In this document: piece by piece, positions 8,980 to 21,511 of the stretch
Layout: each line of letters opens with the position of its first letter
How positions within the stretch are numbered: the first letter of the stretch is position 1
Source: a virus
IMG/VR virus record: IMGVR_UViG_3300034374_000685
Location: 1 to 21,823 of that record
Strand: one strand, 5' to 3'
DNA length: 21,823 nucleotides
Made by a program: the position numbers and the translations under genes
Notes under the pieces: generated by a model
The model's database searches: none
Seen by the model: the letters and a program-made list of their open reading frames with translations, nothing else
What the model was told of the DNA's origin: nothing

Positions 8980-9783
8980 TTAGGGCATCCACCAAGGTTT
9001 ACCGGATCCTGTCAAAAGACCGCCTAAGCCTCCCAACAAACCGCTGTAAACACCGCCGTACAAACTACCGTATCCTGTCCTAAGTCCTAATTCTGCTTGC
9101 AGGTTGGACATAGCAGTCTCTAGATCAAACTCACCTTGCTGTCTACGTGCCACATCAGCCATACCAGCGACGTTTAGGGCAGGACTCATGGCAGACAAGA
9201 GTGCTGCCTGCGGTGCGTAGCTCTGCTGTAAGTACTGTCCTCCTAGACTTGCTTGTTGCGCCTGTTCAGCTTGCGCTTGCTGCATGGCTCCTAGCATGGC
9301 AGTGTTCTGTGCCTCTGCTTGTGCTTTAGCCATAGCAAGTTGTTCTGGAGTACCGCCAAACTGTGCTGTTCGAACACCTAAGCGTCCTTGCGCTGCAAGT
9401 CTGTTTTCCAGTTCTTGACGCTGCCTAGCCTCTTCAGGCATCTGAGCAGCCCGCATTCGTTCGTATATGTCGGTCTCTCGTTGTGCCGTAGGCATAGCAG
9501 CTTGTGTAAAGAATTGACTAGCACCGCCGAACAACTGCTGTTGCATTGCAAGTTGCTCAGGAGAAAGGGCGTAAGTCGTGCTTCCGTCAGCACCTGTTGT
9601 TACTGTGCCGCCTTGTGCGCCTGTTACCGTAAAAGGCTTAAAGGTAATGTCTGGAGGAGTAATTCCAGTGTACGAGGGTGTAAAAGTACCTGTCTCCTCG
9701 TCGTAAGAACCATATAAATTAGCAATTTCAGAGGGAATTAACCCAGACGTAATGTCACCTAGCAAGTCACTTAACCAACTCAT
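8980..9783 (-). CDS. Probable internal virion protein, T7 gp14-like position
   Basis: 267 aa. Short N-terminal helix (MSWLSDLLGDITSGL), a Thr/Gly-rich beta segment (ITPPDITFKPFTVTGAQGG), then a long Ala/Gln/Met-rich helical region (about 75-225, for example AMAKAQAEAQNTAMLGAM) and a Gly-rich tail (GLLGGLGGLLTGSGKPWWMP). Alanine/glutamine-rich helices with a glycine-rich end are typical of podovirus ejection proteins that assemble into a trans-envelope channel, but homology is not proven here. The ATG overlaps the stop of the mini-fibre gene as TAATG, with GGAGGT eight bases upstream inside that gene. Confidence 0.6.
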   Translation of the reverse strand: MSWLSDLLGDITSGLIPSEIANLYGSYDEETGTFTPSYTGITPPDITFKPFTVTGAQGGTVTTGADGSTTYALSPEQLAMQQQLFGGASQFFTQAAMPTAQRETDIYERMRAAQMPEEARQRQELENRLAAQGRLGVRTAQFGGTPEQLAMAKAQAEAQNTAMLGAMQQAQAEQAQQASLGGQYLQQSYAPQAALLSAMSPALNVAGMADVARRQQGEFDLETAMSNLQAELGLRTGYGSLYGGVYSGLLGGLGGLLTGSGKPWWMP

Positions 9784-10016
9784 TAGTAAGTACCTCCGTC
9801 AATCGTTCCTGTAGACAGAGTTCCTGTAAATGTCAGATTAGGTATCGTCACAGTGCCTGTAAAGGTAGGTGACGCTAAGTCTGCTTTGGTTGCAACTGCT
9901 GTTGCAATGTTGTCAAACTCTGTGTTAAATTCAGTGCCTTGAATAATCTTGCCAGCGTCTCCAGAAGGCAAACTATCCTTAGCAGCAAAGTTAGTTGTCT
10001 TTGTATAGTTGCTCAT
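9783..10016 (-). CDS. Mini tail-fibre-like protein
   Basis: 77 aa. The N-terminus (SNYTKTTNFAAKDSLPSGD, then KIIQGTEFNTEFDNIATAVATKADL) is a type often found at the start of phage fibre or appendage proteins. The rest is a Thr/Gly-rich beta repeat (FTGTVTIPNLTFTGTLSTGT) ending in IDGGTY, the same ending as the long fibre at 19691-21076. It has no receptor domain, so it may be a small virion appendage, a truncated fibre or an adapter. The start overlaps the stop of the gp12-like gene (ATGA), and its last codons form the ribosome site of the next gene. Confidence 0.7.
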   Translation of the reverse strand: MSNYTKTTNFAAKDSLPSGDAGKIIQGTEFNTEFDNIATAVATKADLASPTFTGTVTIPNLTFTGTLSTGTIDGGTY

Positions 10017-11578
10017 ATTGTTTTACCCATAAGTGCTAATACGTTGATTTCTTGGAGAGATAAAGCAAAACCGTTTATTTCTGACTCAAGACCAATAGTA
10101 ATTACTGTACCGCCGCCTGTGGTATTTACAGGTGGCCTAGTGGTAGTAGAACCTCCTGTAAACTCAGCAACAGTGTACTCTGAAGTTGGTTCGTTAAAGT
10201 AGTACGGAACCTGATTTCCAACGGTAAACTCTTGCGTACTATAAGTTGTGCCAAAGTCGTAAGCCCACTTGATAAATACGGTAGCACTGTTAGCACCAAC
10301 CAGCGTAGGCCTTATCTTCTTTAGCAACTTAGTCTTCGCCGGATCACCAAAGGTTAGTCCGGGGCTGTAGTACCTGAAGCGGTAGCTTGAGGGTGTAATA
10401 GTACCAGCGTTGTTGTACTCATCAGTGTACCCAGCGTACTCACCTACACCGTCATCAGTTCCTACTAGAAGTGTACCGTCAGTCTTTCTCTCGTACGACT
10501 TAAACGGAGCAGAGGTCCATCGTGTTACTCTGTAGCCTCCGTTCTCTAGCCTACCCTTTAAGTCAAAGCAGTACGTGGTTTGTGTGTCTGGGAACGTAAT
10601 CAAATAGAACGAGTTCTCAGGACTGTATATAGAAGCTGTTGGTGCGGTTCGTGTTTCTACTAACGAAATAATCTCAGTCTTTACGTTGATGCTAAGGTCA
10701 GACAGAGGCATAGATTTTTCTTGTATCGTTCGTCCAAAGCTGCGTAAACCAGAGTTAGACATAAACAATACATCAGTTCCTATGTGCTGAACAGAGTTTC
10801 TACAGATGCACCCAACACCCGCTATAGTGTCAGCCAAAGCCATTAAAGCAGGGCTAAAGGCGTTAGAGTATACAAGTATGCTGTGCTTGCCTAATATAAT
10901 TAGGTTGTTGTTGTGAGCAACCAAAGCCCGTACTTCATCGTATCCATCAGGCCACGCCTTAGATACATCTATAGAACCACTGGAGCCACCAGTGAAGTCT
11001 GTGCCTATCAGCAGGTCAGACCAATAGATAGTCTGCGTGTCTGCTGCGTTATCAACGATCCAGAGTCTACCGTAGGCTGCAAGAGCTTCGTGGCAGTACA
11101 GATCCGAACTGGTGCTGCTGCCGGTTGCGGTGCCAAACGTCCTGAGTCCTGTCGCATTGTCGTACACAAGAGGCTCGTGTCCACGCTGGAAAAAGTAAGC
11201 CTTGTCGTTAAAGTTGACTATCTTCCAGTTGTCTGCTGTAATAGTGTACGAGCCGGGAGTTATGTCAGTTAGCGTGTCATCAGGGTTAGTCGTCTGTGTC
11301 GTCTTAAATATCTTGTTGTTACCCGCAACAAAAATTTCCTCGTTACCAGCATCATCGTAAAAGTGGTGAATCTTAGTAGCGTAATCAGACCCAAGAGGTG
11401 TGTTTACAGCAGTCAACAAGTCTACACCCTTACGTGCAGCAATACGTCCACGTTTGTCAATAACAGCGTTATCTGCGACATCAGCAAAAGACGGATCTTG
11501 TGCAATCGGAGAATCTTCTGTGTTAACTCCCTTAAACGCAGGAGCAACTAGATTAATGCTTTGTAGTGGCTGTGCCAT
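10013..11578 (-). CDS. Tail nozzle / tail tubular protein B-like (T7 gp12 or P22 gp10 type)
   Basis: 521 aa, with GTAGGAG upstream of the ATG. The opening VAPAFKGVNTEDSP followed by FADVADNAVIDKRGRIAARKG is the usual start of podovirus tail-tube/nozzle proteins, and the body has repeated short beta elements (EEIFVAGNNKIFKT, KAYFFQRGHEPLVYD, NNNLIILGKHSILVYS, DVLFMSNSGLRSFG) consistent with a beta-propeller. It would cap the tail below the gp11-like adaptor, whose gene is directly upstream. T7 gp12 is 794 aa and P22 gp10 472 aa, so the length is nearer the P22 type. Function is assigned from the pattern and the gene pairing. Confidence 0.78.
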   Translation of the reverse strand: MAQPLQSINLVAPAFKGVNTEDSPIAQDPSFADVADNAVIDKRGRIAARKGVDLLTAVNTPLGSDYATKIHHFYDDAGNEEIFVAGNNKIFKTTQTTNPDDTLTDITPGSYTITADNWKIVNFNDKAYFFQRGHEPLVYDNATGLRTFGTATGSSTSSDLYCHEALAAYGRLWIVDNAADTQTIYWSDLLIGTDFTGGSSGSIDVSKAWPDGYDEVRALVAHNNNLIILGKHSILVYSNAFSPALMALADTIAGVGCICRNSVQHIGTDVLFMSNSGLRSFGRTIQEKSMPLSDLSINVKTEIISLVETRTAPTASIYSPENSFYLITFPDTQTTYCFDLKGRLENGGYRVTRWTSAPFKSYERKTDGTLLVGTDDGVGEYAGYTDEYNNAGTITPSSYRFRYYSPGLTFGDPAKTKLLKKIRPTLVGANSATVFIKWAYDFGTTYSTQEFTVGNQVPYYFNEPTSEYTVAEFTGGSTTTRPPVNTTGGGTVITIGLESEINGFALSLQEINVLALMGKTI

Positions 11579-11589
11579 TCACTAATCTC

Positions 11590-12276
11590 CTACGGAGTGT
11601 ACCAGATAACTTCTTCAGGATGCTTCTGTGCGTCCAGAGCAATCGCATCAGACAGATACTTGTCAGCAATACCAAAGTACTCAGGTGCTGATGTACCGCC
11701 TGTCTCGCCACGCTCACGAGCCAACATAGCAATAGCTAAGTGAATTACTGGTTGGCTAGGGATAATAAGCTGGTCACTGTCGTTGACTAATTCTTTAGGA
11801 CGAATAATGCTTCCATTAAAATCAGTAATTTGTCCTCTGTTTACTACGTTAAAGCGGAGATCAACACCTGCTGTATCAGGCTTAGGGTACACTTCAACTT
11901 GAGTGTCGCCGTTTGAGTTTACCCCGTTGAACGTATAGTACTGAGGAGAACCAGACTGAGGCTCTTCTTTCATATACTTCTGGTCAAACCACAAAGGAGT
12001 CTGGTACTGTAAATCCCAGTTGTCCGTATCGTTGTACGCATTAAGAACTTTAAATTCGTTACCCGCTCCTGTCATAGCGTAGTTAAACACTCCTACAGAA
12101 GTTGTAACCGTAAGGGTAGTCCTAAGTGCTGACCAGTCCCAAGCGTCCTCTACAATCTTTTTTGCGTCGTTAACAAAATCACCAGCCATCTTGCTGTACG
12201 TTGTAGACTGTACACTAGATACCTCATCTTCCCTGAGGCGTCTCAGGACATTGTTTACTATGTCTAAATATGTCAT
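11590..12276 (-). CDS. Head-tail adaptor / tail tubular protein A-like (T7 gp11 type)
   Basis: 228 aa. The start TYLDIVNNVLRRLREDEV followed by a helix ending KKIVEDAWDWSALRTTLTV is the pattern of T7 gp11-like tail tubular A proteins, which form the ring between portal and nozzle. A beta part follows (VEVYPKPDTAGVDLRFNVV), and then a C-terminal helix around HLAIAMLARERGE. T7 gp11 is 196 aa, so the size is appropriate. The gene directly precedes the gp12-like gene, as in T7. Its ATG overlaps the end of the Cys-rich gene by four bases. Confidence 0.82.
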   Translation of the reverse strand: MTYLDIVNNVLRRLREDEVSSVQSTTYSKMAGDFVNDAKKIVEDAWDWSALRTTLTVTTSVGVFNYAMTGAGNEFKVLNAYNDTDNWDLQYQTPLWFDQKYMKEEPQSGSPQYYTFNGVNSNGDTQVEVYPKPDTAGVDLRFNVVNRGQITDFNGSIIRPKELVNDSDQLIIPSQPVIHLAIAMLARERGETGGTSAPEYFGIADKYLSDAIALDAQKHPEEVIWYTP

Positions 12277-15200
12277 ACTATACCTTTAAATAGTCCTGCT
12301 AAGTAGTCTGTAATTGGGAACTCCCGTCTTGCTAGTAACTGCGGGTCTCCTGAGATGGTGGCAGTAAATGGCTCAAACATACCTGAACCTCCGCCGCCGC
12401 CACCGAAGCCGCCGCCACCGAAGCCGCCGCCTTCTACTTCCTCTTCCTCTTCTTCAGTCCCCCCACATTCTTCTGGATTTGCAGCAGCGTACTCTGCACA
12501 GGTGCAATCCACACATTCCGACCCCGGACAAGGAACCTCTGGTGATGTTGCAGTACCATCAGGACACTCAGAACATAAGGGCCAGTCTGTTGCTCCGTTC
12601 TCACAGGTTTCTTCTTCACCGCCACACTCTAACGGATTCTCCGCTGCATATACAGCATCATCACATGGATTAATGACAACTTCACCACATTCTTCTGGAT
12701 TTGCAGCAGCGTACTCTGCGCAACTACAGTCGTTACACTCCGGATCTTCTCCACATTCTAACGGGTTATTTGCAGCATACGTAGCATCATCACACGGATT
12801 AACTTGCACAGAGCCACAATCGTTTATGTCATCAACCATTTGTCCAGCTTTAGCTGTACCTTCTGGACACTCTATTTGAGTTATTTCTTCAGGAAGCTCC
12901 ACACACTCTAATTCTGTTGATTCTGCTGAAGGTCCAAAGCCTAATGTTTGTACAGGCTGAAGAGTCCCATTTTTACCGTCTTCAGTTGTACAAGGATCTC
13001 CTTCTTTTGGTCCTGTTCCAGTATTAGGATCTATACAGTTTGCATCGCTTGCGGCTATCGTTGTGTCAAACTGACAAGGCTCTTCACAGTTTTCTCCGTC
13101 AAACCTTTGCTGATTTCCGGGGCAAGGCTCTGGCTCAGGATTAGGGTCGTAACAGTTAGTCCCTACTCCGTCGTGTGTCCAGCCCTCGTTTAAACAGTCC
13201 CCACACTCGCTGTTCTTTTGATTAGCCTCATCAGCAGGAATAAACGACTTACCTCTAGAAGCGCAAGTCTCTTCTGTAGGTCCACTATTTGTCCAAGTTG
13301 TTGTTGGCTCACATTCTCCGTTAGGACCAGTAGGCGCTTCTTCGGGGTTTACACACTCGTCTAAGCACTCGTCGTTTAGGCTGTCGTATTTTAGGCCTTT
13401 ATTCGCACAGTCTTCTTCGTTGGTTGATAAAGGGTCTTTGTCAGTACAGTTACCTGATTCTGCGTTCAACTCTTGGTTTTCAGCGTCTATACATTCTTGT
13501 GAGCAATCAGCGGCAGAATAAGCAGTAGAACCGTCTTCTGGATCCTTGCGTCCTACGGAAGAACAATCAAAAGGAGCTTGGTAGCCCGGACACTCAGTTC
13601 CGTCTTCGTCTGTCTTTGGTGTTACCTCGTCAGAACAGTAACCAAACACACCTTCTGCACACTCAGCTTGCGTTTTTTTGTAGGAGCCGTCTGCACACCT
13701 AACTAACGCGCCTTCATTTAAAGCCTCATCACAGAACGCTTGGTTTTCTGACGTTTGTTGCGCCCAATCACCGTCGTAACAGTTTTGAACAAAAGCAAAA
13801 GGATTGGTGTTGCCTATAACTGTTTCTTTGATTTGACTAAAGATCAACGGACCTAAGATGCTGTAGCCCATGTCTATTAAGATGTTTATTAGGCCAGCAT
13901 CTGTTTTTTCTTCTAGGTCTTCCCAAGTATCCTTAATGTTTTCCCAAACATCAGAAGCCCAGTCTGACAGTATTTCACCTATCGTTCTGTCGTCTTCGGG
14001 ATTAAATAAATCTTCTAGAGTTTTGCCTACTTCTTTAGCGGCGTTCTCTAAGTCACGTACAGTTGTATTTACGTCAATCATTCCCGGAGGCAGAGGAATA
14101 TTTAGACCGGGAAGAAGCACACTTAATTTAGTACAGTCTTTCCACCAGTCTTCAGGATAGTTTACTCCTGCTTCTCCTTCGTTTATACACTCCTCTGGAA
14201 TTTGCGGTAGGATGTTGTCTAATATGTTTTTGATAGTGCCTATAGGATCGTCTATAGCACCTTTTATTGTGTCTTTGATTCCGTTGTATATTTCGGTTGC
14301 CTTCTGTACAGCTTCAGCACCATAGTCTCTTTCTAGCTCTTGTTCTGGCGTGAGAGGGGGTTCTGTTGACCCGTCACCAAACACGAAAGGTCCAGTGTAT
14401 CCAGAGTCTTTAAGTACCTTATTTTTTTCCCAGTCTTCTAAATCTTCCCAGCCTTCAGTTGCTTTAGCGTTTTCAAATATTACAGCGTTTTGTATTTGCT
14501 CCTGAACTACTGGATCTGTTGTGTCTATCTCTGCCCCATAGACTATTTGGTAATCGTCTGGACTACATCCTAACACACTACCCTTATAGCACCTAACAAC
14601 AGTGTCGTAAACACCGTCGCCATCCATATCAACACGAGAAACTTGGTCAGTTTCAGTGGGGAGCTTAAGAACATCCCAAACTTGCCCTGTAATATTACCT
14701 AATATATTTTCTAGTGTTACTGCGTTTTGGTTTGTTCTATCATGCAACAAACCGTTTTCAGGGTGATACAGAAGGTCGTTTATAAACTCTTGGTCGTACC
14801 CGGCCTCAAGTAGAGCTTCTTCAATATCGTTCCAATTAGCAGTGTCAGGATTTAACGTATAGTCTACACCGTCTTGATCCCCGTATACTGCAGGATCACC
14901 GTCGTTTTTTAGGTACTCGTATGCGGCCTGTATCTGCTCCTCCGTCATGCCGTCGTACCACGGATTAGTTTCTCCTGTAAGTATGTATCGCTTTAGAGCG
15001 TGAGCGTTCTTCTGCTCATCCGACATATCTTCCCAAGTTATCGGATCGCCTTCGGCGTATCCACTTCCGTCGTCAGCGGGTGCAGTAACTTCGTCCCACC
15101 AGTCGTTAAACGAAGGAAGATCAAGCAAAAAATCAGGCTCAAACGCGAGAAGGTCTTCAATAGTTTTAGTGCCGTCAGCCATTCCATCTAAAATAGCTTG

Positions 15201-15401
15201 TAATTCTTGGGCTTCTTCTTGACGGAATACTCTGTCTATGTCGTCGCTGGCTTGGTCTTCCTGATACTTAGTAAGCCAAGTATAGAACATTTCTTCAAAC
15301 TGGGCAATAGACATACACGAAGCTACAACCTCTCCCACATCGCTTTGTGTTTTGACAGGTATTTCGGATGAATTACAAGTCTTGTTGAGATCGTCAGCCA
15401 T
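12273..15401 (-). CDS. Very large cysteine-rich acidic protein, probable virion or host-contact protein
   Basis: 1042 aa and not recognised as a known family. Residues 1-540 are acidic and mostly helical, with a DMDGDGVYD element near residue 257 that resembles a calcium-binding loop, and a hydrophobic stretch (LINILIDMGYSILGPLIF) near 510. From about 540 to 980 there are about 42 cysteines in a Gly/Pro/Asp/Glu-rich context, including four copies of a short C-x-x-A-x-Y-A-A-x-N-P-x-E-C-G unit near the end. A run of glutamates and a glycine-rich linker (GGGFGGGGFGGGG) then lead to a 30-residue C-terminal segment. The start overlaps the holin stop (TAATG) and the end overlaps the gp11-like gene. 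Position among tail genes suggests a virion component, perhaps an adhesin stabilised by disulphides after release. The GC-rich glycine stretch and repeats hint at recombination-driven growth. Function is inference only. Confidence 0.75.
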   Translation of the reverse strand: MADDLNKTCNSSEIPVKTQSDVGEVVASCMSIAQFEEMFYTWLTKYQEDQASDDIDRVFRQEEAQELQAILDGMADGTKTIEDLLAFEPDFLLDLPSFNDWWDEVTAPADDGSGYAEGDPITWEDMSDEQKNAHALKRYILTGETNPWYDGMTEEQIQAAYEYLKNDGDPAVYGDQDGVDYTLNPDTANWNDIEEALLEAGYDQEFINDLLYHPENGLLHDRTNQNAVTLENILGNITGQVWDVLKLPTETDQVSRVDMDGDGVYDTVVRCYKGSVLGCSPDDYQIVYGAEIDTTDPVVQEQIQNAVIFENAKATEGWEDLEDWEKNKVLKDSGYTGPFVFGDGSTEPPLTPEQELERDYGAEAVQKATEIYNGIKDTIKGAIDDPIGTIKNILDNILPQIPEECINEGEAGVNYPEDWWKDCTKLSVLLPGLNIPLPPGMIDVNTTVRDLENAAKEVGKTLEDLFNPEDDRTIGEILSDWASDVWENIKDTWEDLEEKTDAGLINILIDMGYSILGPLIFSQIKETVIGNTNPFAFVQNCYDGDWAQQTSENQAFCDEALNEGALVRCADGSYKKTQAECAEGVFGYCSDEVTPKTDEDGTECPGYQAPFDCSSVGRKDPEDGSTAYSAADCSQECIDAENQELNAESGNCTDKDPLSTNEEDCANKGLKYDSLNDECLDECVNPEEAPTGPNGECEPTTTWTNSGPTEETCASRGKSFIPADEANQKNSECGDCLNEGWTHDGVGTNCYDPNPEPEPCPGNQQRFDGENCEEPCQFDTTIAASDANCIDPNTGTGPKEGDPCTTEDGKNGTLQPVQTLGFGPSAESTELECVELPEEITQIECPEGTAKAGQMVDDINDCGSVQVNPCDDATYAANNPLECGEDPECNDCSCAEYAAANPEECGEVVINPCDDAVYAAENPLECGGEEETCENGATDWPLCSECPDGTATSPEVPCPGSECVDCTCAEYAAANPEECGGTEEEEEEVEGGGFGGGGFGGGGGGSGMFEPFTATISGDPQLLARREFPITDYLAGLFKGIV
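12460..12800 (-). repeat. Four cysteine-bearing repeats inside the Cys-rich gene
   Basis: Four near-copies of a 15-residue unit (for example PCDDATYAANNPLECG, SCAEYAAANPEECG, PCDDAVYAAENPLECG, TCAEYAAANPEECG) alternate in two forms. At the DNA level the + strand shows CCACATTCTTCTGGATTTGC twice and CACATTCTAACGG / CACTCTAACGG once each, so the alternation is a duplicated pair. Confidence 0.8.
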
Positions 15402-15799
15402 TACCGCTCCCTCGCTACGCCTTTAGTCTTTTCAAAAGAGCGCATAGCGCCTAAGCCCAACATACCCATCAACACCGGCATCATCTCACTTAAATCAAGA
15501 GCCACGATTTCAAGAGGATAACCAGCGACACCAGCAACAAAGTTCCCAAGAGGAACGCAGATAAAATTAAATCCCATTCCTGTAGCGCATATCCACCCAA
15601 CCGCTGGACGCCATCCAGAAACAAACAGCGAAGACGATTTAGCTTCCTCCTGATTAACCTGTATCTGAGCTTTAGCCAACTCGTGGGCGTGTCTCTCAGC
15701 CATAGTCGATATTTCATGCGCTAGCCTATTACGCTCATCAGCGTCTGGTATGAACTTATCTAACAACCCTGCTATAGGGCCAACAAGTAACTCTAACAT
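15401..15799 (-). CDS. Holin of the 3-TM (GTA/DUF3154-like) family
   Basis: 132 aa. The order is a hydrophobic N-terminal helix (LELLVGPIAGLLDKF), a charged helix of about 35 residues (ERNRLAHEISTMAERHAHEL), the marker SSLFVSGWRPAVGW, then two hydrophobic segments (about 65-90 and 103-119) and a basic tail. This is the arrangement of the holin family first noted in gene transfer agents. Holins perforate the inner membrane at the end of infection. The gene sits below the coiled-coil membrane protein gene and overlaps it by one base; its TAA overlaps the ATG of the Cys-rich gene. Recognition is by pattern, and activity is not demonstrated. Confidence 0.8.
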   Translation of the reverse strand: MLELLVGPIAGLLDKFIPDADERNRLAHEISTMAERHAHELAKAQIQVNQEEAKSSSLFVSGWRPAVGWICATGMGFNFICVPLGNFVAGVAGYPLEIVALDLSEMMPVLMGMLGLGAMRSFEKTKGVARER

Positions 15800-17354: not shown

Positions 17355-19127
17355 TTAGGCTCCTTTGAGTGCCGCTACTTCGGCTTTGAGTTCTTCAATC
17401 ATTGCTTGTTGTTCTTGGATGGCTTTGGTTAGAACAGGAATTAACTTTCGATACGAAACGCCAGCAAGCGTTTGATTGCCTTCTTCATCTGCATCGTAGA
17501 AACAAAGGTTAGGATTGACTTGCTCTACTTCGTCAGCAATTAAACCGTATTCTATTTCCTGTATGATCTGATCCGTATAGGAACCGGTTTCTTGGTCTTT
17601 CTCACGGTAGTTGAATGAAACGGGGCTAAGGTTATACAGCCATGAAATGTCACTGAGGCTTTCAATATTGGCTTTACTTTCCCTAGTAGATGAGAGATAG
17701 CCCATAGTGCCAACAGAGTCCACATAAAGATCGCGTCCAGTTACGGAATAGTTATATGGCGAGTTACCGTCTTGCCCTACGTTTATTATTCCGTCATTCC
17801 TAACGTAAAAACTTAATGTTGAATCGCTATTTTTACAAAACAGAGAATAATCTGATGAGGTATTGCTTGCGCCTTTTATGTCTACCCTTGAAGAGACTGA
17901 TGCCGTTTGACCAACCAGCAAGTTTCCGCTGGTATCAATTCTTGCTTTTTCAACGTTTGCAGCTTTAATAATAAAATTGCCAGAACCACCCACAGAAAAA
18001 GATGCGGAAGATACTTCAATGCTACCGTAACCAGTGGTAACTGGATCGTCTGTAAATTGAATTGTTGAATTTCCAGATGAATTTTCTAAAATTCTCAATC
18101 CAATCGTATCAACATCCCTAGCTTTTACTGTTAAGGGTGCGCTAGGACCATCCGTGCCAATCCCCACGTTGCCGCTGGAGTCGATGCGCATAGCTTCGTT
18201 GTCTGCTGAACCTCCTCCTCCGCCTGTTTTAAATACTAACTGACCAGTTCCAGCAGTAGCGCCGTATGCTCTTATCGCGGCTATATTAGAGCCGTATTCC
18301 AGCACAACAGCGTTAGTTTGATTTGCGTTTAGCTGTCCCCTTGAAACAACAATTCCGTTTGCATCTAGTGATCCTGCTTTGCTAAAAGTTGCCGCAGGAC
18401 TCGTAGTGCCAATACCAACGTTTCCGCTTGAGTCGATACGCATGGCTTCTGAGGCGTTAGTAGAAAATGCCATAGAATTATCAGAATGATCGTATGCTAG
18501 CTGTCCAACCCTGTTGTCTGTTCCTGTAGTTCCATCAGCAAACAAAATTCTTTGTGACCCTGATGCGCTTGTAAATAAAGTCATACCAGAAAACGTATCT
18601 GACGTATTTCCAAGAACAAGATTAGGGGCAGTCGCATAAGCATCAGATGGGCTTGAGTTGCCAATACCAACATTGCCGCTGGAGTCGATACGCATCGCTT
18701 CGTCACCACTACCAAAGCCGCCTGTTCTAAAGCTAGTAACACCAGCAGATTGAATAAATAAGTTGCCAGCATTGGCAGTAAAATCTGCGACTTTTACATC
18801 ATCATCGCTAAAATGAATCTGACCACCGGCACTTCCGTTAATGTTTACGGTAGTATATCCAGCCGCTAATGAAACCGTATCCGTGCCAATACCAACATTC
18901 TCTGACGCATCAATAGTAATCGCAGTGCTTGTGGCGTTATCGTCGATGCCTGTGGAGGTGAACGTACCTGTAGTCAAACTAGTCGGATTAGAACCAAGCT
19001 CTATAACAGAGCCGCCTGAGTCTTCTGTGTAGAGTCTCTTGTTAGTTAAATCTACAGCCAATTCACCTTGAACTAGATCGCTAGCTAAAGGCGCTCCTGA
19101 TCCATTTTTAGTAACAATCGTAGTCAT
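17355..19127 (-). CDS. Tail fibre/spike with C-terminal S74 intramolecular chaperone
   Basis: 590 aa. The N-terminus (SGAPLASDLVQGELAVDLTN, RLYTEDSGG) is a common fibre start. The shaft contains the motif EAMRIDSSGNVGIG three times, at 143, 227 and 311, with weaker versions near 73 and 397. The C-terminus is a peptidase S74 chaperone: SSTRESKANIESL with Ser480 and Lys485 as the likely cleavage dyad, then NLSPVSFNYR, EYGLIADEV, SYRKLIPVLTKAIQ and a terminal coiled coil (EQQAMIEELKAEVAAL). Such domains trimerise the fibre and then cut themselves off. The ATG directly follows the TAA of the HNH gene. The fibre call is very secure; receptor unknown. Confidence 0.92.
   Translation of the reverse strand: MTTIVTKNGSGAPLASDLVQGELAVDLTNKRLYTEDSGGSVIELGSNPTSLTTGTFTSTGIDDNATSTAITIDASENVGIGTDTVSLAAGYTTVNINGSAGGQIHFSDDDVKVADFTANAGNLFIQSAGVTSFRTGGFGSGDEAMRIDSSGNVGIGNSSPSDAYATAPNLVLGNTSDTFSGMTLFTSASGSQRILFADGTTGTDNRVGQLAYDHSDNSMAFSTNASEAMRIDSSGNVGIGTTSPAATFSKAGSLDANGIVVSRGQLNANQTNAVVLEYGSNIAAIRAYGATAGTGQLVFKTGGGGGSADNEAMRIDSSGNVGIGTDGPSAPLTVKARDVDTIGLRILENSSGNSTIQFTDDPVTTGYGSIEVSSASFSVGGSGNFIIKAANVEKARIDTSGNLLVGQTASVSSRVDIKGASNTSSDYSLFCKNSDSTLSFYVRNDGIINVGQDGNSPYNYSVTGRDLYVDSVGTMGYLSSTRESKANIESLSDISWLYNLSPVSFNYREKDQETGSYTDQIIQEIEYGLIADEVEQVNPNLCFYDADEEGNQTLAGVSYRKLIPVLTKAIQEQQAMIEELKAEVAALKGA
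18156..18701 (-). repeat. Three 42-bp repeats at exact 252-bp spacing in the fibre shaft
   Basis: The copies at 18660-18701, 18408-18449 and 18156-18197 code for EAMRIDSSGNVGIG and are nearly identical in DNA, with + strand cores such as CGCTGGAGTCGATACGCAT. Their starts are 84 codons apart both times. Confidence 0.88.
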
Positions 19128-19691
19128 TTAGATAACCTCAAAACTATTTGATTTAGATAAGTTGTCTTCTGCTGTAAGTATTTGCAGATTGTGTTCTACG
19201 TGTAAACCACACACCTTATCGTTCTGCAAAGGAACAATGTGATCTACATGAAATTTTATGTTTAATCCAGCGTTGTTAAAAATATCTTCAGCTTCTCTAC
19301 AGTTTTTATACAAGTCTTCAATGTACTTTTGGTCAGCCCAAGAAACAGAGGCGTTTAATTTAGCTGTTCGCCTTCTTGATTCTTTAGCTGCGTACTTTCC
19401 TAAATTATTTTTTCTGTGCTCGTCTGCTCGTTTTTTTTGTTGTTTAACCCACTCAGTATCTTTTCTTTTTTCAAAATGATATTTTTTATTTATTTCTCTC
19501 ATGCGCTCTTTGTTTTCGTTGTACCATCTACGTTTTCTTTCTCTAGTAGCCTCTTTGTTTTTTGCTACGTATTCTCGTTCTATTTCGAGCTTGCAAGGTC
19601 TACACTCTGTAGCTAAACCATCGAAGTTAGACTTATTACAACAAAACTCTGTTAATTTTTTTGTTTGTTTACATTTCCAACACGTTTTCAT
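19128..19691 (-). CDS. HNH endonuclease with N-terminal zinc module
   Basis: 187 aa. The N-terminus carries C-x2-C-x22-C-x2-C (Cys4, 7, 30, 33). A long Lys/Arg/Glu-rich helix follows, then a C-terminal HNH core: HVDHIVPL (His148-His151), VCGLH, HNLQIL (Asn168) and DNLSKSN. This is the usual pattern of phage free-standing HNH homing endonucleases, which nick or cut DNA near their own locus. It is squeezed between two fibre genes with no spare bases: its ATG overlaps the TAA of the heptad fibre and its TAA abuts the ATG of the S74 fibre. The gene is visibly more A+T-rich than the neighbouring fibres, which suggests separate acquisition. Confidence 0.9.
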   Translation of the reverse strand: MKTCWKCKQTKKLTEFCCNKSNFDGLATECRPCKLEIEREYVAKNKEATRERKRRWYNENKERMREINKKYHFEKRKDTEWVKQQKKRADEHRKNNLGKYAAKESRRRTAKLNASVSWADQKYIEDLYKNCREAEDIFNNAGLNIKFHVDHIVPLQNDKVCGLHVEHNLQILTAEDNLSKSNSFEVI

Positions 19692-21076
19692 TAGTACGTC
19701 CCACCATCTATACTAGACAGTGTTGTTGCAATAGAAGTTGTACCAGAGCCAGTGATTGCTCCAGTCAGTGTAATTGTTTCGTTGCCTGTGAGATAACTTT
19801 GGAGATCACTAATCTGGGATTCTGTAATACTCAAAGCAGCCTGATGTTGTGTAACGCTAGCCTGTGTAATGTTTGCGTCAGGGACGTTAGCCCACGTTAC
19901 CGCAGCAGTCAGGTCGTTAGTCTCTGTAAAACTTGTGAGGTATCCAGCACTAGCGTGGTTGCCCCATCCAAAAGCAGTGTCCCACTGACCCACCTTAGTA
20001 TCAGTAATGACGTTAACACCCATGTCAATGTTGTTGCCGTTAGCATCTAACGTGCCGCCTAGCTGTGGCGTAGTGTCGCCAATGAGGTCAGGGTTTACTG
20101 TCTGCCAACCAGACCCATCGTAAATACGTGTTGTGTTGTCGCCTGTATTGAAGTACCAGTCACCAGCAGTAACTGCGTTGCCGTTTAGGTCAACAGTTGG
20201 GTTAGACGCTTGTGCACCTAAGAAGAATCCGTCGATAGCCTCTTGTGCAGCCTCTGCTGCCGTCTGAGCAGCTTCTGCAGCCGTTTGAGCCGTCTGCGCT
20301 GCTGTAGCACTGGTGGATGCGTTCGTCGCTGAGGTGGACGCTGAGGACGCGCTAGAGGCAGCATTGGTTTCTGATGTTGACGCATTGGACGCAGAGGTTG
20401 CAGCGTTGGTTTCGCTAGTGCTAGCCGCAGACGCTGATGCTGCTGCGTTAGTCTCACTTGTGCCTGCGTTAGTCTCAGACGTAGCCGCTGCTGTTGCTGA
20501 TGACGCTGCCGCTGTCGCACTAGACGCTGCGTTGGTCTCAGACGTACTTGCGTTGGATGCAGAAGTTGCTGCGTTGGTTTCAGATGTGCTAGCGTTAGTC
20601 GCTGCTGTAGACGCTGTAGTCGCACTTGAGGCAGCAGCAGTTGCGCTAGTTGACGCATTAGACGCAGAAGTTGCTGCGTTAGTCTCTGACGTACCCGCAT
20701 TAGTTTCTGATGTTGCAGCGTTGGATGCGCTAGTAGATGCAGCAGAGGCGCTAGAGGCAGCATTAGTCTCAGATGTGCCAGCGTTAGTTTCACTGGTGGA
20801 TGCTGCAGATGCGCTAGCGGCTGCGCTGGTTGCGCTAGAGGCTGCGTTAGTTTCTGATGTAGCTGCGTTAGATGCGCTAGTAGCCGCAGCGGTTGCGTCA
20901 GATGAAACACTGGCTTCACTAGCAGCAGCGTTGGATGCGCTTGTAGCCGCTGCAGATGCACTGGCAGCAGCTTCGTTTGCTTTTGTAATAGCAGTCTGAG
21001 TGTTCTCAGCTAGCTGTGATGCGTAGGCATCTGTAGAGGCATCACCAGAACCACCGTCTCCTCTGTACAAGGGCAT
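19691..21076 (-). CDS. Tail fibre with long Ala/Ser/Thr heptad-repeat stalk
   Basis: 461 aa. Residues 36-280 are 35 consecutive seven-residue units of the type A-A/S-T-S-E/A-T/S-N (for example AATSETN, AGTSETN, ASTSASN), turning into AQTAQTA/AEAAQEA at the end; such stalks are expected to form a trimeric coiled coil, as in lambda-type side fibres. A small conserved domain follows (SNPTVDLNGN, GDWYFNTGDNTTRIYDGSGW), then FGWGNHASAGYL, a motif common in phage fibres, and a Thr/Gly-rich end ending IDGGTY. No enzymatic or chaperone domain is visible. It may bind other fibre parts or the receptor. AGGATA upstream lies in the end of the HNH gene. Confidence 0.9.
   Translation of the reverse strand: MPLYRGDGGSGDASTDAYASQLAENTQTAITKANEAAASASAAATSASNAAASEASVSSDATAAATSASNAATSETNAASSATSAAASASAASTSETNAGTSETNAASSASAASTSASNAATSETNAGTSETNAATSASNASTSATAAASSATTASTAATNASTSETNAATSASNASTSETNAASSATAAASSATAAATSETNAGTSETNAAASASAASTSETNAATSASNASTSETNAASSASSASTSATNASTSATAAQTAQTAAEAAQTAAEAAQEAIDGFFLGAQASNPTVDLNGNAVTAGDWYFNTGDNTTRIYDGSGWQTVNPDLIGDTTPQLGGTLDANGNNIDMGVNVITDTKVGQWDTAFGWGNHASAGYLTSFTETNDLTAAVTWANVPDANITQASVTQHQAALSITESQISDLQSYLTGNETITLTGAITGSGTTSIATTLSSIDGGTY
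20237..20971 (-). repeat. 35 tandem 21-bp units coding for the fibre stalk
   Basis: Codons 36-280 of the heptad fibre are 735 bases, exactly 35 x 21. Units differ mainly by codon choice and by swaps among Ala, Ser, Thr, Glu and Asn. The periodicity also opens long meaningless frames on both strands. Confidence 0.9.
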
Positions 21077-21079
21077 AGG

Positions 21080-21511
21080 CTATATCCTATTTGATTTGCT
21101 CAGGTTATCCAATGCTGGGATTACCTGTAAATTCCAAGGAACGTGTAAGCCACAACAGTTTTGTCCACGGAGGGGAACTATATGGTCAACGTGATGAACT
21201 ACTCCGGTTAGCTTTGAACGCAGGTCGCGTAGTTCGTAAATCTCTTCCAGCATAAATTCATGTTCTTCTGTAAGCCACGCTGGTTTGGCTCTGGCTACCT
21301 GCTTGTTTCTTAGGTAGGCTTTGGTTATGTAGTACTGTCTTCTTTTTGTTTTATAATAATGTCTGTTTTGTGCGTTAATAGTTTCTCTACGTTCTTTGCG
21401 TTTTTCGTTAACACAAAACTTACATTGTCCAAAGTAGCCGTCTTTGTTTCTAGGCTGCTTAAAAAATTCTGTATATGGTTTGGTTTTTTCGCAAGTGCTA
21501 CACTTTTTCAT
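21080..21511 (-). CDS. HNH endonuclease with N-terminal zinc module
   Basis: 143 aa. The zinc module has Cys4, 7, 30 and 33 with the same spacing as in the 187-residue HNH protein, and the core shows HVDHIVPL (His107-His110), CCGLHV, WNLQVI (Asn127) and DNLSKSN. The basic linker between the two parts is shorter here. GGAG at 21517-21520 is six bases before the ATG. The gene lies between the capsid-distal promoter and the heptad fibre; its last codons (AATAGGATATAG) supply the fibre's ribosome site. A free-standing homing-type nuclease is the likely nature. It could act on the fibre or capsid end of related phages lacking it. Confidence 0.9.
   Translation of the reverse strand: MKKCSTCEKTKPYTEFFKQPRNKDGYFGQCKFCVNEKRKERRETINAQNRHYYKTKRRQYYITKAYLRNKQVARAKPAWLTEEHEFMLEEIYELRDLRSKLTGVVHHVDHIVPLRGQNCCGLHVPWNLQVIPALDNLSKSNRI

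Follow-up and report, generated by a model that had tools for sequence, protein, structure and literature searches.

An exchangeable tail-module gene of uncultured podovirus-like phages encodes proteins with even numbers of cysteines, consistent with disulphide-stapled mosaics

Tailed-phage proteins are assembled in the reducing cytoplasm and are normally poor in cysteine, which raises the question of what a protein with 48 cysteines is doing in the structural operon carried by a 21,823-nucleotide stretch of viral DNA (IMG/VR record IMGVR_UViG_3300034374_000685, positions 1 to 21,823; hereafter the window). Its gene, which we call the slot gene, encodes 1042 amino acids (aa) with a net charge of -174 (Table 1); the open reading frame (ORF) is as given in a preliminary description made from the DNA letters alone, and Pfam and PHROG matches uphold the location proposed there, between a holin and a gp11-like connector. 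The slot gene is overlapped at both ends, by one base where its start meets the holin stop and by four where its stop meets the start of the connector, or adaptor, and the adjoining structural proteins contain 0 to 4 cysteines each, compared with 48 here. Statistics on related sequences demonstrate cysteine pairing, modularity, gene replacement and recurring C-terminal motifs among the proteins that fill this slot, and we argue that the slot protein probably has a part in attachment of the virus to its host or in entry.

Close relatives of the window protein are found in only three IMG/VR contigs, apparently from the same phage. Using the adaptor and the gp12-like protein encoded beyond it as anchors, we sampled about 170 adaptor-holding IMG/VR loci, some of them overlapping on one contig, and read the gene directly upstream of the adaptor. 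The same slot proved to be filled in scores of contigs, by homologous and analogous ORFs that range from 61 to 1406 aa in length and from no cysteine to 84. Identical copies of the slot gene occur in contigs of other samples (L002, L085) and dozens of diverged homologues keep the frame open, so the gene is not an assembly artefact.

Cysteine is present in 66 of the 94 distinct complete slot ORFs (range 2 to 84), and not one of the 66 has an odd number. Leaving out L003 and L064, which are apparent internal-start fragments, gives 64 of 64, and neither these two nor the very short L155 and L288 alter the result. Eight families of the same phages served as controls (gp12-like, portal, major capsid protein (MCP), ribonucleotide reductase (RNR), nuclease, fibre, holin and a 282-aa lipoprotein-like protein), and among their 264 distinct members 80 have an odd count; the difference from the slot ORFs has a Fisher p of 1.2e-9, a significance inflated by relatedness. 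Clustering at 60% identity gives 34 clusters and 52 distinct cluster-count combinations, every one even, and the probability of 34 even clusters is about 5e-6 at the control odd rate and 6e-11 at a rate of one half. Counting cysteine parity is an established test for disulphides (PMC3177088), and even counts in exported proteins have been taken in the same sense (PMC12421883). Among homologues at 60-95% identity, cysteine is the most conserved residue (86%, ahead of Trp at 83% and Gly at 82%), even with the cysteine match score lowered in the alignment. Gains and losses are paired as well: L092 and L151, 91% identical, differ by a 24-aa insert with two cysteines, L156 and L194 differ by a 9-aa segment carrying two, neither pair has a single cysteine substitution, and L044 and L063 contain tandem two-cysteine repeats. 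When cysteines were counted in every alignment gap, many gaps held just one, but gap placement is unreliable at lower identity and only clean pairs were therefore used as evidence. Cysteines ahead of the cysteine-rich region number 0, 2, 4 or 6 in all but L060 and L071. Even counts and paired gain and loss across the family, which together mark a disulphide protein, are both found here; judged by these patterns, pairing of the cysteines in disulphides is well supported, and the disulphide dependence suspected in the preliminary description has gained strong backing.

The slot gene is also replaced as a unit. In L008/L009 the adaptor is 94% and the gp12-like protein 82% identical to those of the window, and the slot holds an unrelated, cysteine-free protein of 390 aa; DNA identity with the window, at 82%, extends up to position 12275 and ends exactly at the junction of slot and adaptor. 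For L061, identity with the window is 95% in the gp12-like protein, 71% in the adaptor and only about 31% in the slot protein. From these comparisons we conclude that the slot is a cassette, and synteny together with the replacement in L008/L009 identifies a tail-module gene exchanged among close relatives, as expected of receptor-binding proteins. Phage receptor-binding and tail-fibre genes can move as cassettes, an example being the host-recognition module of Alteromonas schitovirus A5 (PMC10579305), and the likeness to the slot lies in wholesale replacement of a structural-module gene among close relatives and in mosaic exchange. Most slot ORFs finish with a short linker and a recognisable C-terminal peptide, and these peptides recur in cysteine-rich and cysteine-free slot proteins alike.

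Within the window protein, six cysteines lie in residues 1-540, as the near pairs 9/29, 271/279 and 405/423, and 42 in residues 541-979. The preliminary description, which put about 42 in the last 440 residues, was right about the cysteine-rich C-terminal part and slightly off in the count (37 in the last 440, 42 in the last 502); the poly-Glu and Gly-rich linker that it placed after this part is present. An acidic motif of the form Dx[DN]xDG, seen at residues 258-266, occurs in 39 of the 54 cysteine-rich slot proteins. Parts of the N-terminal region are similar to L061, L134, L084 and L060, and AlphaFold2 models it as a block with a predicted local distance difference test score (pLDDT) mostly of 60-88. 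The full-length model is poor (pLDDT 52) and gave nothing usable in Foldseek; residues 541-770, modelled with 26 relatives, reach a mean pLDDT of 77.7, with some blocks above 90, at a predicted template-modelling score (pTM) of 0.38. High local pLDDT with low pTM is the pattern that independent small modules, arranged like beads on a string, would give in such models, and repeats and modules do turn up at differing positions among relatives. Separately, a subgroup of slot proteins (L028, L063, L057 and L123) has hydrophobic stretches rich in Gly and Ala (mean hydropathy 1.5-2.1), which might be capable of membrane insertion.

The family appears to be undescribed in the libraries and literature that we searched. 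Pfam returned no EGF-like, TNFR-like, furin-like or disintegrin family for the window protein up to E 1, or for nine slot relatives or the 27 A3 members up to 0.1, and for the window protein nothing passed the cut-off and no enzymatic domain was found. PHROGs gave the window protein no match below 1e-3 (best E 0.0038, to a family of unknown function; tail tape measure, 0.35), and neither PDB sequences nor tblastn against 50,697 phage records matched the cysteine-rich protein. A clear match to a known cytoplasmic family, which would have spoken against an unusual protein, was likewise not seen in Pfam, in PHROGs below 1e-3 or among PDB sequences. The EGF-like, TNFR-like or disintegrin-like fold that had been considered for the cysteine-rich half found no significant Foldseek match with the model of residues 541-770, for which the top entries were megalin/LRP2, the insulin receptor CR and R-spondin (best E 0.34, probability below 0.1, non-significant). 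Two leads were rejected: a profile of alignment A1 gave only coiled-coil or helical chance matches against PDB (best E 0.0047), and the Rhizobium phage N2 gene upstream of an adaptor match does not look like a slot homologue, having neither cysteine-rich part nor C-terminal motif. A phage protein of this kind was not described in any of the papers searched.

The reading that we favour, and to which we give about one chance in two, is that the slot protein is a virion-associated, host-contacting mosaic, anchored to the tail by its C terminus and oxidised after release; it is suggested by the place of the gene in the tail module, by its exchange between relatives and by the C-terminal peptides that recur behind a flexible linker. 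The gene would be one allele of a hypervariable, cassette-swapped tail-module slot in an uncultured podovirus-like group. Because no signal peptide is seen in a hydropathy scan (N terminus MADDLNKTCNSSEI...), the protein, synthesised in the cytoplasm from the late operon, would presumably be kept there until lysis, and the short peptide beyond the linker would attach it to the tail, most likely to the adaptor or nozzle. Upon lysis into oxidising water, or arrival in an oxidising periplasm, the cysteines would close pairwise and staple the protein into a string of small modules, which would probably bind calcium, project outward and touch the host surface. The lack of a signal peptide and the paired cysteines together point to oxidation after release or in the periplasm of the next host, and the maturation outside the cell proposed in the preliminary description stands in this conditional form, drawn from the missing signal peptide and the known reducing cytoplasm. 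An adhesin role would fit the whole-gene swapping and the tail-module position, and since the mosaic chain would contact the host surface, module shuffling and whole-gene replacement would change host range. More tentatively, we would see here a new class of virion appendage, a C-terminally anchored, extracellular-matrix-like mosaic of disulphide mini-modules, reduced when made in the cytoplasm and folding through oxidation only after lysis, possibly with the aid of a phage glutaredoxin, and serving as an exchangeable host-contact module.

Several points weigh against tail-anchored host contact. Virion presence and cell binding are things that we infer, and parity is silent on when or where the bonds form. 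The window has separate fibre-like genes (17355-19127, with Peptidase_S74, and 19691-21076), so the slot protein need not be the receptor-binding protein, and no match to a known receptor-binding protein, tail fibre, spike or adhesin fold was found in Pfam, PHROGs, PDB, phage records or Foldseek. The C-terminal motif comprises at least two classes and a group left unclassified by the pattern used, and some slot alleles are short and disordered-looking (151 aa), which is odd for an essential adhesin.

The main rival places the slot protein inside the virion, in the lumen of the head or tail, from where it would be ejected at infection and have its disulphides closed by Dsb enzymes or the oxidising milieu of the next host's periplasm. 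The slot does adjoin tail and ejection-like genes in the structural operon, a strongly acidic, flexible chain could pass a narrow channel, and several alleles have a hydrophobic central segment (residues 503-521 of the window protein, moderately hydrophobic at a mean hydropathy of 1.61; L028, 2.06; L291, 2.04). This segment is weak in many alleles, however, the operon ends in three cysteine-free proteins that are more natural candidates for ejection, and chain size, variability and gene swapping better fit surface contact, so that we consider ejection unlikely. Less probable again is a late protein outside the virion with a role in lysis or release, such as one that acts from the lysate on neighbouring cells or on the envelope, as might be suspected of a gene that directly follows the holin gene with an overlap; the protein has neither signal peptide nor enzymatic domain, the recurrence of its C-terminal peptides and the coupling of the gene to the start of the adaptor suggest that it is assembled with tail parts, and near TerL relatives encode a distinct M15-like candidate endolysin, so named from the look of its sequence. 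That the even counts are a by-product of two-cysteine repeat expansion, with no disulphide meaning, is very improbable: the tandem repeats of L044 and L063 lend it some colour, but counts stay even down to 2, 4 and 6 cysteines, those of the N-terminal part are mostly even too, and the single losses that would break parity are absent from complete ORFs. Least credible is a shell or storage protein that binds metal (zinc or Fe-S), a metal-rich shell protein being the preliminary description's other suggestion, for despite the many cysteines the family averages about 0.4% His, the window protein has only four CxxC spacings and no clustered CxxC tetrad or Cys-His ligand set, Pfam gives no zinc-ribbon or ferredoxin family (scattered zinc-finger matches occur in 2 of the 27 members, at weak E only), and division of the counts by four leaves 0 or 2 with about equal frequency, so that pairing is conserved in the family and tetrads are not.

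Placed beside known systems, the slot gene belongs as a variant with the exchangeable host-contact genes of phages, but we found no match among known phage proteins for its disulphide-mosaic build. Known phage receptor-binding proteins and tail fibres are generally cysteine-poor, beta-structured and trimeric with N-terminal anchors, whereas slot proteins have up to 84 paired cysteines, a proposed C-terminal anchor and no fold match. Eukaryotic extracellular mosaics (EGF-like, LDL-receptor class A, furin-like) resemble them in being chains of small modules with paired cysteines and acidic calcium-loop-like motifs, but there is no significant sequence or structure match, cysteine spacing and number per module differ, and the slot protein has no signal peptide. 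Small accessory virion proteins of the T7 gp6.7/gp7.3 type resemble the slot protein in being encoded by a variable accessory gene near the tail and portal genes of T7-like phages, but are much smaller and have no cysteine-rich mosaic. The g3p of filamentous phages is a host-recognition protein with disulphide-stapled domains, as the slot protein may be, but it leaves the cytoplasm through Sec and acquires its disulphides in the periplasm, ahead of assembly. That a widespread phage group encodes a swappable tail-module protein with as many as 42 presumptive disulphides raises the question of when and by what means a phage protein folds oxidatively without export; the family is also a source of many disulphide mini-modules without an assigned fold, and the gene a marker for host-range exchange in uncultured phages.

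In some genomes of the group the late operon includes, ahead of TerL, a gene for a small glutaredoxin (Pfam Glutaredoxin, E 1.1e-9); the window record stops short of that region. Among genomes with both regions readable it is present in all five whose slot protein has four or more cysteines (G001, G005, G011, G023, G027) and in two of ten with 0-2 (present in G004 and G024; absent from G002, G003, G012, G025, G026, G028, G030 and G031), which gives a Fisher p of 0.007 with phylogeny ignored, with the G003 slot incomplete at a contig end and only about 2.3 kb before TerL in G031. The linkage is suggestive only.

Table 1. Features of the slot gene, its product and neighbouring genes (window coordinates unless a contig is named)
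Feature	Position	Strand	Basis
Slot gene, 1042-aa protein with 48 Cys	12273..15401	-	ATG start; ORF list and sequence
Holin, directly upstream, same operon	15401..15799	-	Pfam GTA_holin_3TM E 2.3e-17; PHROG holin 4.6e-32
SU10-adaptor/gp11-like connector, downstream of slot	11590..12276	-	Pfam SU10_adaptor E 1.4e-10; PHROG tail protein
gp12/nozzle-like or head-closure-like virion protein (tentative name)	10013..11578	-	PHROG phrog_5107 E 2.8e-29
N-terminal mostly helical region, residues 1-215, Cys pair C9/C29 around predicted beta hairpin	14757..15401	-	
DMDGDGVYD, residues 258-266, Ca-binding-loop-like motif beside Cys pair C271/C279	14604..14630	-	Sequence
Central helical region, residues 350-540, motif LPGLNIPLPPGM	13782..14354	-	Conserved in alignment A1; low AlphaFold2 confidence
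Cys-rich mosaic, residues 541-979, 42 Cys	12465..13781	-	Resembles many slot proteins module by module
Cys modules, residues 611-700, predicted small compact units	13302..13571	-	AlphaFold2 of 541-770, pLDDT 82-95 (fragment blocks 71-160)
Two 2-Cys units NPCDDAxYAAxNPLEC (868-883, 911-926)	within 12465..12800	-	Sequence
Two 4-Cys units C(N/V)DC(S/T)CAEYAAANPEEC (889-905, 963-979)	within 12465..12800	-	Sequence
Poly-Glu (EEEEEEVE) and Gly-rich linker, residues 980-1007	12381..12464	-	Gly-rich linker recurs in most Cys-rich relatives
C-terminal 35-residue motif MFEPFTATISGDPQLLARREFPITDYLAGLFKGIV, Cys-free, proposed virion anchor	12276..12380	-	Recurs in otherwise different slot proteins
Glutaredoxin	L146:12089-12319 (G005); G001:1616-1843; others		

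The structural operon runs in the order TerL, portal, MCP, fibre, holin, slot, adaptor, gp12-like and ejection-like genes, and the gp12-like protein has a second PHROG match, to the virion structural protein family phrog_3287 (3.3e-17). The near-complete relative G001 has TerL, portal, MCP, fibre-like genes, slot, adaptor, gp12-like protein, a small protein and three ejection-like proteins, followed on the opposite strand by replication genes including RNR; its portal, MCP and ejection proteins were named by size, position and the look of their sequences, TerL also by tblastn to annotated terminases. Roseophages and cobaviruses have an RNR with about 60% identity to this one. A host search among bacterial genome contigs found adaptor relatives only, in six mostly short contigs of metagenome-assembled or single-cell genomes, and no reliable host.

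Among minor observations in the window, a 77-aa protein (9783-10016) and the second fibre-like protein (461 aa) have a common ending, ..IDGGTY, found also in relatives and perhaps a shared docking peptide. FKPFTVTG, in the N-terminal third of a 267-aa protein (8980-9783), resembles FEPFTATISG of the slot C-terminal motif, possibly by chance. Two small cysteine-containing ORFs (19128-19691 and 21080-21511) flanking fibre-like genes look like HNH endonucleases, and an ORF at 832-1530, beside a PolA-like gene, has a GIY-YIG/T5orf172-like appearance (VYIITNPNFRDWVKVGMA), each judged by eye.

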